Of a stretch of 64,000 nucleotides of DNA, positions 35,464 to 40,439 are shown piece by piece. The notes beneath the pieces were generated by a model. The model did not search any database. It saw only the letters and a list, made by a program, of their open reading frames with translations, and was not told the DNA's origin. Every line of letters starts with the position of its first letter. Positions within the stretch are counted from its first letter, which is position 1. Where the stretch lies: positions 62,001 to 126,000 of the forward strand of contig JAFGEW010000132.1 of the NCBI GenBank assembly GCA_016931415.1. Reading direction: 5' to 3'. The position numbers and the translations under genes were made by a program. Origin of the DNA: Verrucomicrobiota bacterium. GTDB taxonomy: Bacteria; Auribacterota; JABMQX01; JAFGEW01.

Positions 35464-35541
35464 TCCGCGGTAGCTCAGTTGGTAGAGGTCCGCGCAAGGC
35501 GCGGCTCGCCCCTGGCGGGATTAATCACGCCTTCGGCGTGA
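35464..35541 (+). pseudogene. tRNA-Asn 5' fragment fused to hairpin sequence
   Basis: Bases 35464-35487 repeat the first 24 nt of the intact tRNA-Asn (TCCGCGGTAGCTCAG onward). Then the sequence changes to a hairpin block containing CGCCCCTGGCGGG and the palindrome TCACGCCTTCGGCGTGA (35525-35541). No tRNA 3' half follows, so it cannot fold as tRNA. Confidence 0.75.
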
Positions 35542-35589
35542 CCTCCGGCCTCGGCGCGGCGGGACTGCAGACAGGTAGTGGAAATCGGT

Positions 35590-35665
35590 TCCGCGGTAGC
35601 TCAGTTGGTAGAGCGGGTGGCTGTTAACCACTTGGTCGCAGGTTCGAGTCCTGCCCGCGGAGCCA
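35590..35665 (+). tRNA. tRNA-Asn(GTT)
   Basis: Complete cloverleaf: acceptor TCCGCGG pairs with CCGCGGA, D-arm TAGCTCAGTTGGTAGAG, anticodon arm around CTGTTAACC (anticodon GTT, Asn), T-arm with GGTTCGAGTCC, discriminator G and an encoded CCA at 35663-35665. The only intact tRNA seen in the window. Confidence 0.95.
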
Positions 35666-35686
35666 CTTTCTTCTGGCGAGGCGAAG

Positions 35687-35782
35687 AGGTAGCTCAGTTG
35701 GTCGAGTCCCGCCGGAGGCGGTCCCGCCCCAGGCGGGATTGGTTACGCTTCCAGCGTGATTCGAGTCCTGCCCGCGGAGCCA
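35687..35782 (+). pseudogene. tRNA-Asn mosaic with anticodon region replaced by hairpins (copy 1)
   Basis: GGTAGCTCAGTTGG (D-arm) is followed by ~57 bp of hairpin sequence (GTCCCGCC... CCCAGGCGGG ... TTACGCTTCCAGCGTGA) replacing the anticodon and variable arms, and then by the exact tRNA 3' end TTCGAGTCCTGCCCGCGGAG with CCA (35760-35782). The 5' acceptor strand is lost. Not a functional tRNA. Lies 35 bp before the GIY-YIG gene. Confidence 0.8.
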
Positions 35783-35816
35783 GTCTTTTTTCGCCTCCCC
35801 GAGGGAAAGACAGCCC

Positions 35817-36071
35817 ATGGCGTTCTGGACTTACATCCTCCAGAGCGAGTCGACGGGCCGGTTCTACTGCGGGTCCAGCGACGACGTGGAACGACGCGTC
35901 CGCCAGCATAACGACCCCGAGTACCACGGCTCCAAGACCACGAAGCGTTTCCAGGGCCCCTGGCGTCTTGTCTGGCACCAGGAGCACGCGTCGCGATCAG
36001 AGGCCATGCAGCAGGAACGCCGCATCAAGAAGCGCGGCATCCGACGCTTCCTCGATGACGCGGAGCGGTAG
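35817..36071 (+). CDS. GIY-YIG nuclease (UPF0213/YhbQ-like)
   Basis: An 84-aa single-domain GIY-YIG endonuclease: TYILQS (GIY position), FYCGSSDDVERRVRQHN (YIG position with catalytic Arg), and the catalytic Glu in AMQQERRIKKRGIRRFL. It lies exactly between two tRNA-Asn mosaics (35687-35782 and 36065-36161), and its TAG stop is the GGTAG of the second mosaic's tRNA D-arm. This arrangement suggests the nuclease gene moves or spreads together with tRNA fragments. In stand-alone members the cellular target is poorly known. Confidence 0.92.
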   Translation: MAFWTYILQSESTGRFYCGSSDDVERRVRQHNDPEYHGSKTTKRFQGPWRLVWHQEHASRSEAMQQERRIKKRGIRRFLDDAER

Positions 36072-36161
36072 CTCAGTTGGCGGAGTCCCGCCTGCGGCGG
36101 TCCCGCCCCAGGCGGGATTGGTCACGCTTCCAGCGTGATTCGAGTCCTGCCCGCGGAGCCA
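36065..36161 (+). pseudogene. tRNA-Asn mosaic with anticodon region replaced by hairpins (copy 2)
   Basis: Same structure as 35687-35782: GCGGTAGCTCAGTTGG, hairpin insert (GTCCCGCCTGCGGCGG, CCCAGGCGGGATTGG, TCACGCTTCCAGCGTGA), then the intact tRNA 3' end and CCA ending at 36161. Its first bases supply the stop codon of the GIY-YIG gene. Confidence 0.8.
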
Positions 36162-36600: not shown

Positions 36601-37728
36601 ATGAGCAGAAGGTACATGGTTGCAGCAGCAGTGATCGTCCTCGTTACTGTCCTCGTTGTTGTCCTTGCCCTGCTGAACAGGGGGAAGCAACCCGAGCCTG
36701 GTATCCTGAAGGTCGGCGTCGTTTTACCGCTGACGGGGCCGGCGGCTGACCAAGGCAAGGATATTCTCTCGGGCATCGAGATGGCCAGAGATGAGATCAA
36801 CGGGTCGCGCAAGAACGACGACCCCAAGGTAGAGCTCATCATCGAAGACAGCATGGCTTCGCCGAAGGGTGGCGTCTCGGCCCTTGAGAAGCTGATTCAG
36901 ACGGAGCGCCCGCCGGCTGTGATCGGCCCGATCGCCAGCTCCGTCATGCTGGCGATGATCCCCGTCGCCGAGCGTGAGAAGGTGGTTCTGCTCTCGCCGG
37001 CTGCGTCGAGTCCCCAGATCTCCAACGCAGGTCGCTACATCTTCCGGATCTCGCTTCTGGCGCCTCCTCAAGCGAGAGCTCTGGCCAAGTTCGCCAAGGA
37101 CGAACTTAGCGCCGAGCGAGCCGCCGTGCTGTACGTCAACGACGACTCGGGGATTTCGTACAGGGACGCCTTCCGCGATGCGTTCGCTGCCCAGGGTGGT
37201 ACAGTGGTCTTTGAGGACTCGTACGAAAAAACCGGGACGGACTTCCGAACCCAGTTGACCAAACTGAAAGCGGCGAACGCCGAGATCACATTCGTCCCTG
37301 GCATCCCGCAGACGGTCGGGCTGATCCTGAAGCAGGCCAGGGAACTCGGCGTCGACACCCAGTTCCTGGGGAACTACGGAACCGAGGGGGAAAGCCTTCT
37401 CACGTTGGCCGGGAACGCGGCCGAGGGCTTCATATACACCTCCATCCCTGTGTCCGACGAGTTCGTCAAGTCTTTCGACGCGAAGTTCGGCCGTCATCCC
37501 ACGATAGGTGCTCCGCTAGGCTACGACGCGCTACAGGTTGTTGCGCATGTCGCCAAGGCCCACGGAACATCGTCAGAGGCGATCAGAAAGGGGCTATCAG
37601 AGCTCAGGGACTACGACGGCGCCACCGGACTGACAACCATTCTTCCGTCAGGGGATGCTGAGAAGGAGGTGACCTTGAAGGCCGTGAGTAATGGAGCCTT
37701 CACTGGTTACAGAGTAGGTCAGCAGTGA
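36601..37728 (+). CDS. Liv-type branched-chain amino-acid/amide ABC transporter binding protein
   Basis: Periplasmic binding protein of 375 aa. The ATG is preceded by a GGGAGGAG site. An N-terminal hydrophobic segment (residues 6-25) lacks a lipobox. The LivJ fold is clear: LKVGVVLPLTGPAADQGKDI, GIEMARDEIN, PPAVIGPIASSVMLAMIPVA, ERAAVLYVNDDSGISYRDAF and FVPGIPQTVGLILKQAREL. It is the first gene of an operon with livHMGF-type genes downstream, but two non-transport genes intervene. The ligand may be an amino acid, amide or other small molecule. Confidence 0.9.
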   Translation: MSRRYMVAAAVIVLVTVLVVVLALLNRGKQPEPGILKVGVVLPLTGPAADQGKDILSGIEMARDEINGSRKNDDPKVELIIEDSMASPKGGVSALEKLIQTERPPAVIGPIASSVMLAMIPVAEREKVVLLSPAASSPQISNAGRYIFRISLLAPPQARALAKFAKDELSAERAAVLYVNDDSGISYRDAFRDAFAAQGGTVVFEDSYEKTGTDFRTQLTKLKAANAEITFVPGIPQTVGLILKQARELGVDTQFLGNYGTEGESLLTLAGNAAEGFIYTSIPVSDEFVKSFDAKFGRHPTIGAPLGYDALQVVAHVAKAHGTSSEAIRKGLSELRDYDGATGLTTILPSGDAEKEVTLKAVSNGAFTGYRVGQQ

Positions 37729-40439
37729 AGCCCGGTGAGACTCGAAGGATGTCCACTGAGGGAGAAGAGGTCGGCTGCGCGACGCAGGTGGCACGCCCTT
37801 CTGATAGTCAGTTCCGTGCCGAGTTCACCAGCAGCTTCGAGGCCCTAAAGTGCTACCTTCGCACCGAGTGGAGGAGCAACCTCACGGTGCGCAGATACGA
37901 AGTGGAAGTTGCCAAGGTCTTACGCGAGGTTCTGCACGCGGTCGAGGGACACCTCGCGTCATGCAACCCGCGTTTCCGGCTTGGTAGAGCTATCGCTTAC
38001 CTCAACTCGCCGGTCATCAAAGCCCGCATACGCATACCGCTGTTCGGAGGCACTGCGACAGGCGATCGTCTTGAACAGACTGATCGCGACGGGAAAGACC
38101 GCAATGTGTGGTCGCGTAAGGCCCGTGAAGGGAATGAACGGAGCCTGATGTTCTTTCGGCCTGACGAGCCGACTCACCTTCTGACGGAACACACGTGGCG
38201 ACTCAGGCCTGATCGTTCCTGGGGGAAAGGACATGCGCTTTGCGTCTTTCAGTTTCGCGATGACCAATGGACGTTCATCGAGCACGCTGAGGATCGAGTC
38301 TTCTCTGTCCACGCCGGCGCATCTCGTGGAGTCTGTAAGACCCTGCAAGATGGCACGGGTAAGAGTGCACAGGAAGCTCGCGCGCAAGCCGTCGCGGAGT
38401 ACCTGGGGTATTCCTCGAGCGATGCCCTGTGGTTGAAGCTAGCTGGTGATCTTAATAGCAGATGCAGATTCCTTGTAGCCAACAACGCGGCCAGCCCTGA
38501 TGTTCCCATTGTTGAATACACGAAGGAGCACGCGAGAAAGCTGTTCATGAGACCTCTCCAGCTCCTCCATAAACTGCAGCTGGAGGGGTCCCCTGGGGCG
38601 AATATATTCTACCTCTCTGACGTCTGCCAGACAGAATTCATGGGCGGCATAGACGCCGAGATTGTCCCCTCGCCCGCCGTCAACGGCGACAAAGAGCACA
38701 CGGAGATCGCCAAGGATCTCACTGCGTTCTTGGAGGAGATACAGTGGGTGGTGAGCCAGTATGTCTTGCACCTTGTATCCGCGGCGGAGCGTGGTCATCA
38801 AGTGGAGGGTGACGTGTATGCGGAGGCTTACTTCGGGCGTTGGCCCAAGGGTGAGCCTGGCGCCGATTACCACGGACTGAGAGACATGCTGTCGCTGTTT
38901 GAGCAAATGCAAAAGGGGATTGGCGGAAACAACGCGTTTGCTCGAGAGGCGATTGAAGTAGTGGGAAACCACCTCAGGCTGGCTGGAGGAACCATTGGCG
39001 AGTATTGGCGGGGCTACGACCGCTGGGCGTTCGAGGTAGCATGCACAGTCGCGCGCCTTTTTCACTGCTTGCTGCCGAGGCTTTTCCCCGGAGGGGACGG
39101 CGGCACAACTATCACCGATATCGTCCAAGGCAGCAGTGGACGCCTCCGGACCCTCGACAGCCTGCTCGCCGAACAGCCTTTTCTTGTCAGGCAGCTGTTC
39201 CGCGGACTGAGTGCAGAGGACGAGTTATTTGCGCTTCCCCTCTACCGGGAGCACTTCGTGCACTCATTCCATGTGTTCATGCTTGGCTTGGTATTCCTAT
39301 ATTGGCGACCGCAGGAGGTTTTCCCGGGCGAATCTCTAGCAGCGATGGGACGAGGCCAAGCAGATGTGCTTGTGCGGCGCTGGTTTCTGGTTTCGATGTG
39401 GCACGACATCGCTTACTCGCTCGAGAAGGGGCGAGAGCTGGCGGAGAGGCACATCCACAGGCTTCTCGGCAAGGAAAGAGTTAGGCGGTTCCGCGGGCTA
39501 CTCCCGTCCATGCCAAGCCTTGGTCACCTCTTTCAGGTTGAGCAGCTCATTGAGACACTCGAAGACGCGACAAGCTCCCCTCTCGATGCGAATGAATCAA
39601 AACGCAATCCTCCAATGTTTGCCATGCACAACGAGCTCCGCGCAGCGGGGATTCGCATCAGAGATGTTGTCTCGGCTGTAGCCTTCGACCGAGCAGACCA
39701 CGGTATCTGGTCTGCACTCCTTCTGGCCCATGCGCTGACGTGCCCGTGCCATCAACTCTCAGACCGGTCAGCTTGGGATCTGATCGGACGAGACCTTGGC
39801 GGAGATGGTGGTCGCGCCAATCAGATGACAGGGCTGGGAGTGCTGGCCTTGGCAAAGGCAGTCATGCCACATCATGTATACTCGTGGGACTGGCCGTCCA
39901 TGCTGGAAACCTTCTACTCATGTCCGGAAGCCGGCGTCAGAGGTCAGTTCCCCGAAGCCACAATCACGGGCGCGAACCATCCATTGGAAAGTCAGTTCCG
40001 TACCGCGCACCTCAGCGTCATGGACAATGAGCTTGGATACTTGCTGGTGTTGACAGATGTTCTGGGGCAGCTTGGGCGCGAGGCGTCAGAGAAGGCAAGT
40101 GACGTGCCCAGCGCTCTCAACATAAAGCTTATTCGGTTCCTCGTGTCGGGTGACCCGCCTCACGTGACAGCAGTCTTCCACTATGGGGGAAGAAAGGATG
40201 GGGGTCTCGATCCAAACAAGATGTTGAAGTACTACGGGCTTCCCGCTCTGTACCTGGGTCTGGATATGGCCAAGGATACCTTGGAGGGTGAAATACGCGG
40301 GGACGAGTTGTGGTTGTCGGACGGATCGGGGAGCACGGCGCGTCCCCTGAAGCCTGGACGGCTGTACATTGCCGTTGTCACTGATCGGGACATGCCCCGT
40401 TTGCAGATTAAGGTTCGAGTCTGCACGTTAAAATCGTGA
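37725..40439 (+). CDS. Large protein with HD-like region, function unknown
   Basis: A 904-aa protein starting at GTG 37725, overlapping the binding-protein stop (GTGA); an ATG at 37749 is an alternative. I do not recognise the family. The central part has an HD-phosphohydrolase-like pattern: REHFVHSFHVFMLGLVFLYW (~residue 508), MWHDIAYSLEKG (HD at ~559), FDRADHGIWSALLLAHAL (~652) and MPHHVYSWDW (~713). The N-terminal ~300 residues are mixed alpha/beta and the C terminus beta-rich. No membrane helices are evident, so it is probably cytoplasmic. Co-translation with an importer suggests processing of, or signalling about, the imported compound. Confidence 0.6.
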   Translation: MKPGETRRMSTEGEEVGCATQVARPSDSQFRAEFTSSFEALKCYLRTEWRSNLTVRRYEVEVAKVLREVLHAVEGHLASCNPRFRLGRAIAYLNSPVIKARIRIPLFGGTATGDRLEQTDRDGKDRNVWSRKAREGNERSLMFFRPDEPTHLLTEHTWRLRPDRSWGKGHALCVFQFRDDQWTFIEHAEDRVFSVHAGASRGVCKTLQDGTGKSAQEARAQAVAEYLGYSSSDALWLKLAGDLNSRCRFLVANNAASPDVPIVEYTKEHARKLFMRPLQLLHKLQLEGSPGANIFYLSDVCQTEFMGGIDAEIVPSPAVNGDKEHTEIAKDLTAFLEEIQWVVSQYVLHLVSAAERGHQVEGDVYAEAYFGRWPKGEPGADYHGLRDMLSLFEQMQKGIGGNNAFAREAIEVVGNHLRLAGGTIGEYWRGYDRWAFEVACTVARLFHCLLPRLFPGGDGGTTITDIVQGSSGRLRTLDSLLAEQPFLVRQLFRGLSAEDELFALPLYREHFVHSFHVFMLGLVFLYWRPQEVFPGESLAAMGRGQADVLVRRWFLVSMWHDIAYSLEKGRELAERHIHRLLGKERVRRFRGLLPSMPSLGHLFQVEQLIETLEDATSSPLDANESKRNPPMFAMHNELRAAGIRIRDVVSAVAFDRADHGIWSALLLAHALTCPCHQLSDRSAWDLIGRDLGGDGGRANQMTGLGVLALAKAVMPHHVYSWDWPSMLETFYSCPEAGVRGQFPEATITGANHPLESQFRTAHLSVMDNELGYLLVLTDVLGQLGREASEKASDVPSALNIKLIRFLVSGDPPHVTAVFHYGGRKDGGLDPNKMLKYYGLPALYLGLDMAKDTLEGEIRGDELWLSDGSGSTARPLKPGRLYIAVVTDRDMPRLQIKVRVCTLKS

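Follow-up and report, generated by a model that had tools for sequence, protein, structure and literature searches.

The tRNA-Asn locus described here, which lies in a window of 64,000 nt (the whole stretch of DNA that was analyzed), probably represents a widespread family of small mobile elements of a homing-like kind, directed at tRNA genes. In this family, a gene for a minimal GIY-YIG nuclease is associated with pieces of a tRNA gene in which hairpins occupy the place of the anticodon arm; this anatomy recurs at tRNA genes of many isotypes, the nucleases cluster by isotype on a protein tree, one pair of genomes provides an occupied and an empty site, and pieces of tRNA move with the nuclease. 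We infer that the nuclease cleaves its target, that the unit is copied by repair, and that the hairpins have a part in the process.

Organization of the tRNA-Asn locus

The locus comprises an intact tRNA-Asn gene, three mosaics of tRNA-Asn sequence and hairpins (A, B, and C), and a nuclease gene.

35464 to 35541, plus strand: mosaic A, tRNA-Asn nt 1 to 24 (35464 to 35487) followed by three hairpins, without the tRNA 3' end
35490 to 35504, 35505 to 35519, and 35525 to 35541, plus strand: hairpins of mosaic A, CCGCGC-AAG-GCGCGG, CTCGCCCCTGGCGGG, and TCACGCC-TTC-GGCGTGA, respectively
35590 to 35665, plus strand: intact tRNA-Asn (GTT) (ARAGORN; Rfam tRNA, 72 bits; whole-genome search)
About 35688 to 35782, plus strand: mosaic B, tRNA nt about 6 to 24 (35688 to 35706) and nt 54 to 76 with CCA (35760 to 35782)
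35709 to 35721, 35723 to 35737, and 35743 to 35759, plus strand: hairpins of mosaic B
35817 to 36071, plus strand: GIY-YIG nuclease gene, 84 amino acids (Pfam PF01541, 1.3e-16; alignments)
36067 to 36161, plus strand: mosaic C, tRNA nt about 6 to 24 (36067 to 36085) and nt 54 to 76 with CCA (36139 to 36161)
36088 to 36100, 36102 to 36116, and 36122 to 36138, plus strand: hairpins of mosaic C

A first-pass annotation of this DNA had described an intact tRNA-Asn with three partial copies, two of which kept an exact tRNA 3' end with CCA, and a GIY-YIG gene lying between two copies and taking its stop codon from the second. This description was confirmed: the tRNA was called by ARAGORN and Rfam, sequence matches identified the three partial copies, with mosaic A identical to tRNA nt 1 to 24 over 35464 to 35487, mosaics B and C retain exactly nt 54 to 76, and the nuclease stop codon (TAG, 36069 to 36071) coincides with the TAG within the D-arm sequence GGTAGCTCAG of mosaic C. 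The 102-nt segments that contain mosaics B and C are 93% identical, with the nuclease open reading frame (ORF) between them. These two mosaics cannot be tRNAs, because they retain neither the 5' strands of the acceptor and T stems nor the anticodon arm. In a whole-genome search of the 4.06-Mb assembly, the mosaics were confined to this locus, and the gene at 35590 to 35665 was the sole full-length tRNA-Asn found. When folded as RNA, mosaics B and C were better than shuffled sequences (z scores of -3.24 and -3.85, respectively) and mosaic A was no better than its shuffles; an Rfam scan of the locus returned tRNA alone above threshold. A chance origin of the mosaics was ruled out by the exact repeats and the shuffles, and an assembly artifact was rejected on the ground that the anatomy recurs in many genomes, including G102 (locus L148), which is a single contig with 100% completeness.

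Hairpins within the mosaics

The annotation had also described the same pair of hairpins in two of the copies. The first of the pair, CCCGCCCCAGGCGGG, is exact in both mosaics (at 35723 and 36102), whereas the second, TCACGCTTCCAGCGTGA, is exact at 36122 and carries one change at 35743, in mosaic B; four matches to TCACGCTTCCAGCGTGA were found at up to three mismatches, a number equaled in none of 100 shuffles. Beyond this pair, mosaics B and C possess a third hairpin at the front (CCGCC-NNN-GGCGG), and mosaic A holds diverged forms of the B and C hairpins. The bases of the first hairpin differ between A and B/C with pairing retained, and the last hairpin displays a compensated change, from TCACGCC-GGCGTGA in A to TCACGCT-AGCGTGA in B and C.

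Whether such hairpins keep to tRNA mosaics was examined in five genomes, and the answer was mixed. TCCCGCC-N(3-4)-GGCGGGA occurs three times in the window genome (two within tRNA mosaics, both at the window locus), four times in G357 (all within mosaics), three times in G331 (two, one of them in the solo mosaic at L225 described below), and four times in G102 (two), so that 10 of 14 lie in tRNA mosaics across these four genomes; in the fifth, G018, the similar palindrome TCCCGCC-NNN-GGCGGGA was found 132 times, scattered in the manner of REP sequences. The hairpins are, then, mostly tied to tRNA mosaics in four genomes and form a dispersed family in one. A universal hairpin was rejected in view of this dispersed repeat and of the variation in hairpin sequence from genome to genome; owing to that variation, the recurrent feature is a hairpin at that place and not one particular hairpin.

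The palindromes of G018 are dispersed over L074, L224, and many more sites, and this genome also has a GIY-YIG gene with a hairpin mosaic of tRNA origin at its flank, a possible partnership of nuclease and palindrome that would be analogous to REP/RAYT. At L225, in G331, an intact tRNA-Arg lies about 300 nt away from a solo tRNA-Arg-like/hairpin mosaic, and a GIY-YIG gene lies about 3 kb away.

The nuclease

The window protein consists of the GIY-YIG catalytic domain only, is of the UPF0213/Slx1 kind, and conserves the catalytic Tyr, Arg, and Glu in alignments. The best match in a PDB sequence search was 1zg2 (UPF0213 BH0048; 1.5e-17), and Foldseek, run with an AlphaFold2 model (pLDDT, 87.7), ranked UPF0213 first (1.3e-4); by sequence and fold, UPF0213 BH0048 and Slx1 are its closest relatives of solved structure, with weaker matches to I-TevI and UvrC. 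Neither Pfam nor the AlphaFold2 model revealed a separate DNA-recognition domain, and the NCBIfam intron endonuclease model scored 19.7 bits, under its cut-off of 56. I-TevI-type enzymes have a DNA-recognition part that this protein lacks, which leaves sequence-specific homing uncertain. The gene is under purifying selection, with dN/dS of about 0.10 in the two pairs that were distant enough, the remaining pairs being too close, saturated, or badly aligned. A phage origin was considered and rejected, as the clade of nucleases found at tRNA-Asn (see below) was not found in IMG/VR and the PHROGs match was weak, and a role as a defense system was likewise rejected, with weak PADLOC matches only.

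Survey of nuclease loci

A profile built from 15 sequences related to the window protein was used to query 44 genomes of the window's phylum and a 384-genome sample of relatives that includes that phylum; every match listed at the chosen thresholds was included, 61 within the phylum and 77 outside it (138 loci), and because of the composition of the query, the fractions given here describe this branch and not all GIY-YIG proteins. Within 100 nt of the nuclease, intact tRNAs reach 1.94 per kb at the phylum loci and 2.28 per kb at the others, compared with about 0.045 and 0.040 per kb, respectively, beyond 600 nt, which is an enrichment of about 40 to 60 times, and 81 of the 83 tRNAs within 300 nt lie on the same strand as the nuclease. 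At about half of the loci surveyed, no intact tRNA lies within 300 nt, which counts against the targeting of tRNA genes.

Of the 69 tRNA-linked loci (36 families; L012, described below, is included), 55 have a further fragment of a tRNA within 450 nt, in most cases derived from the same tRNA, and 31 of the 36 families have a fragment whose best match is a tRNA of its own locus. The side occupied by the intact tRNA goes with the type of fragment: where the intact tRNA is upstream of the nuclease, the fragment beyond the nuclease is of the 3' type in 13 cases and of the 5' type in 4, and where it is downstream, the fragment in front is of the 5' type in 23 cases and of the 3' type in 3 (Fisher P = 4e-5, a descriptive value, since loci were counted as independent though some are related). 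The 5' fragments mostly end at nt 25 to 30, where the anticodon stem begins, and a perfect hairpin abuts the broken tRNA end in 37 of 67 tested, compared with 3% at control positions.

The nearest relative of the window nuclease, at L012 in a member of the Desulfobulbaceae (65% identity), is likewise at tRNA-Asn and is set in the order of two tRNA-Asn/hairpin mosaics, the intact tRNA-Asn, the GIY-YIG gene, and a 3' mosaic of tRNA-Asn and hairpins; the first two mosaics have a 101-nt period and carry the hairpin TCCCGAC-GGT-GTCGGGA. Four 67-nt tRNA-Asn/hairpin repeats precede the intact tRNA-Asn, nuclease, and 3' mosaic at L133, a tRNA-Glu mosaic array is present at L163, and related arrangements occur also with tRNA-Pro, Asp, Ser, Met, Gln, Ala, Cys, Gly, Lys, Leu, Tyr, Arg, and Glu. 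At five of the seven tRNA-Asn loci of the clade described below, the tRNA fragment supplies the stop codon of the nuclease, as the D-arm TAG in the window and L133 and as the anticodon-loop TAA in L012, L135, and L143.

In the flanks fetched around the GIY-YIG relatives at L013 to L042, mostly from sphingomonads, no tRNA was called; many of these proteins have C-terminal tails that share repeat-like peptides (VSTSLDTNG and SEVE), which suggests that palindromic repeats are fused to the gene end. At L268, in G150, a tRNA-Asn-derived mosaic just upstream of the nuclease is apparently inverted, the orientation elsewhere being direct.

Isotype association on the protein tree

The tree was built from 81 nucleases and 85 columns, and with so few columns, many of its forks are open. 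Isotype clusters on it, with 44 changes against a shuffled mean of 57.5 and none of 200 shuffles as low. One clade (support, 99/96) unites the nucleases of the window, L012, L069, L133, L134, L135, and L143, all at tRNA-Asn, with an eighth member, L151, that is at tRNA-Pro and has a long branch; the genomes of the tRNA-Asn clade represent at least five phyla, as judged from separate phylum listings and the Desulfobulbaceae record. The link to isotype is imperfect, and the Asp, Arg, Val, and Leu labels are unclustered. When three phyla were sampled more widely for the tRNA-Asn clade, few members were added, these phyla being small; three loci were new, in G388 and G393, and at these, tRNA pieces were present and no intact tRNA was called in the fetched DNA, and the clade is therefore not always at an intact tRNA.

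Occupied and empty sites

One clear comparison of an occupied and an empty site was obtained, from two genomes of the same genus, G003 and G019, which have in common an upstream gene, a tRNA-Pro that differs by one base, and a downstream tRNA-Arg. Only G003 has the nuclease and a 3' mosaic, beginning right after the CCA of tRNA-Pro, and the matching site of G019 holds unrelated sequence of about 200 nt. The first-pass annotation had proposed a search for empty sites in related strains; this pair supplies one at tRNA-Pro, but none was found for the window's own tRNA-Asn locus. Similarly, G129 and G269 share a tRNA-Ala and its downstream flank, and at the same spot the former has a mosaic and a nuclease and the latter a solo mosaic with different hairpins. 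G393 contains two nuclease copies 6 kb apart, with homology that spans the ORF through the tRNA D-arm and TCCCGCC; no intact tRNA was called in the fetched flanks of the two copies, and the tRNA piece therefore belongs to the nuclease unit. The nuclease copy in G388 is interrupted by TGA.

Proposed mechanism and alternatives

We propose a unit composed of a one-domain GIY-YIG gene and a piece of its target tRNA, with one or more hairpins in the place of the anticodon arm. The nuclease would cut or nick the matching tRNA locus, and repair of the break would copy the unit beside the cognate tRNA and on the same strand, with the carried tRNA piece providing homology, leaving an intact tRNA at one end of the unit and a truncated copy at its other end; an intact tRNA upstream would thereby be accompanied by a 3' piece behind the nuclease, and an intact tRNA downstream by a 5' piece in front of it. 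The hairpin-swapped copies have no anticodon region and may escape cutting; alternatively, the hairpins may be the substrate that an Slx1-like enzyme recognizes. Cutting followed by break repair would account for strand, adjacency, the rule of 5' and 3' pieces, the isotype clades, and presence/absence, and repeated cutting would also explain the tandem mosaic arrays. Two observations count against a homing-like process: the intact tRNA next to the nuclease retains the presumed target, and G269 has a mosaic without a nuclease.

The first-pass annotation had envisaged a homing-like unit of nuclease and mosaic directed at tRNA-Asn. This core idea is well supported, on the strength of seven distant genomes in one clade, G393, and the presence/absence pairs; about a dozen or more isotypes are involved, however, and not Asn alone, and homing, in the sense of cleavage and copying, would have to be accomplished by a protein without the classical recognition part. 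We also put forward, tentatively and at somewhat less than even odds, a fuller proposal, in which a minimal Slx1-like nuclease would recognize tRNA genes or hairpins by DNA structure, carry tRNA homology, preserve an intact tRNA, and protect its own copies by hairpin swapping, with protein clades specialized by isotype, and these elements would constitute a new class of bacterial mobile element.

The most durable of the alternatives, although an unlikely one, is that tRNA genes and GC-rich palindromes form cruciforms on which a structure-specific Slx1-like enzyme acts, that repeated cutting and misrepair duplicate tRNA ends and swap hairpins, leaving the mosaics as scars, and that the gene spreads by ordinary recombination at tRNA genes and not by homing. 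The kinship with UPF0213 BH0048 and Slx1, the lack of a recognition domain, the replacement of hairpin by hairpin at the D and anticodon arms, and the tandem mosaic arrays of L133, L163, and L012 are all in its favor, but scars of this kind do not fit well with the correspondence of isotype to protein clade across phyla or with a tRNA D-arm and hairpin that accompany the nuclease away from any called tRNA.

It is less probable again that the system operates on RNA, with expressed mosaics that serve as decoys or regulators resembling tRNA and a GIY-YIG protein that acts on, or is controlled by, tRNA or tRNA-like RNA in the manner of a toxin and its antidote. The ends of the mosaics are often lost (mosaic A and the L133 arrays), no Rfam family except tRNA reached threshold, matches to defense libraries were weak, and GIY-YIG proteins are, to our knowledge, DNA nucleases; these points weigh against an RNA function, whereas the location of the mosaics on the tRNA strand, the better-than-shuffled folding and retained CCA end of B and C, and stems that keep pairing despite base changes (A compared with B and C; G129 compared with G269) speak for it. 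The ends of tRNA genes are classic attachment sites and the genes common landing sites, but the idea that the nuclease and tRNA pieces are hitch-hiking remnants of larger integrative elements is very improbable, given that no recombinase was present among the neighboring ORFs tested, that the unit is only about 0.4 kb, that the fragments lack the anticodon arm and have hairpins, and that some units are located upstream of the tRNA with 5' pieces.

Relation to known systems

A homing-like family of tRNA-linked units is best filed as a relative of known GIY-YIG elements and as a member of no one known family. The closest described relative is SegB of phages T4 and T6, a GIY-YIG gene that, as here, adjoins tRNA genes (PMC13096335; PMC2988022); with cleavage sites that lie within tRNA genes, this homing enzyme promotes the spread of the tRNA region and drives its amplification in tandem, and free-standing enzymes of the GIY-YIG type are, according to the same paper, poor at cutting the donor allele that carries them (PMC13096335). 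The SegB cleavage motif given there, RAWTSGAAC, would by our reading be the complement of the T-loop. SegB is a phage gene in a tRNA cluster, whereas the bacterial protein is a bare 84-amino-acid domain nearer to UPF0213/Slx1, and SegB is not known to be accompanied by hairpin-swapped tRNA copies (PMC13096335; PMC2988022). The best match in sequence and fold is to the single-domain GIY-YIG proteins of UPF0213/COG2827 (PDB 1zg2 [BH0048] and 1ywl) and to Slx1, for which no link to tRNA was described in the open-access literature searched; Slx1 is a longer, partnered, structure-specific enzyme, unlike the 84-amino-acid window protein.

Tyrosine-integrase islands resemble the window unit in that they are beside a tRNA, keep the intact tRNA, and have a truncated copy at the far side, but the window unit has no integrase, occupies about 0.4 kb, and has hairpins in place of the anticodon arm; no tyrosine or serine recombinase was found among the neighboring ORFs tested. 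A nuclease gene flanked by short GC-rich palindromes, with dispersed palindromes in G018, recalls REP/RAYT, in which the enzyme is a Y1 transposase and not a GIY-YIG nuclease; the palindromes here are inside tRNA copies, and the window genome has no dispersed palindrome family (three hairpins, two at the locus). Bacterial tRNA genes can also host group I introns, part of which carry homing enzymes, including some of the GIY-YIG type (PMC3984707), but Rfam detected no intron RNA at the window locus, and the nuclease gene adjoins an uninterrupted tRNA. The first-pass annotation knew of no described system of this exact structure, and our search of the open-access literature was in agreement, yielding no account of chromosomal GIY-YIG genes that are linked to tRNAs and accompanied by hairpin mosaics. 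The bacterial tRNA-linked nuclease family is real and recurrent and apparently undescribed in the open-access literature searched.

If the homing-like interpretation is correct, broken tRNA copies, odd hairpins, and small GIY-YIG genes would be parts of one selfish family that spares a working tRNA, UPF0213-type proteins would gain a candidate role, and tRNA-gene homing would extend from phages to bacterial chromosomes, with an 84-amino-acid nuclease and a possible natural series of tRNA targets.

Elsewhere in the window, an ORF of 904 amino acids without a Pfam match (37725 to 40439) adjoins a periplasmic-binding-protein gene. A recurrent set of tRNA-Ser-linked GIY-YIG genes occurs in the window's phylum (L075, L076, L077, L095, L096, L098, L111, and L120), and several of its members overlap or abut the tRNA-Ser gene.
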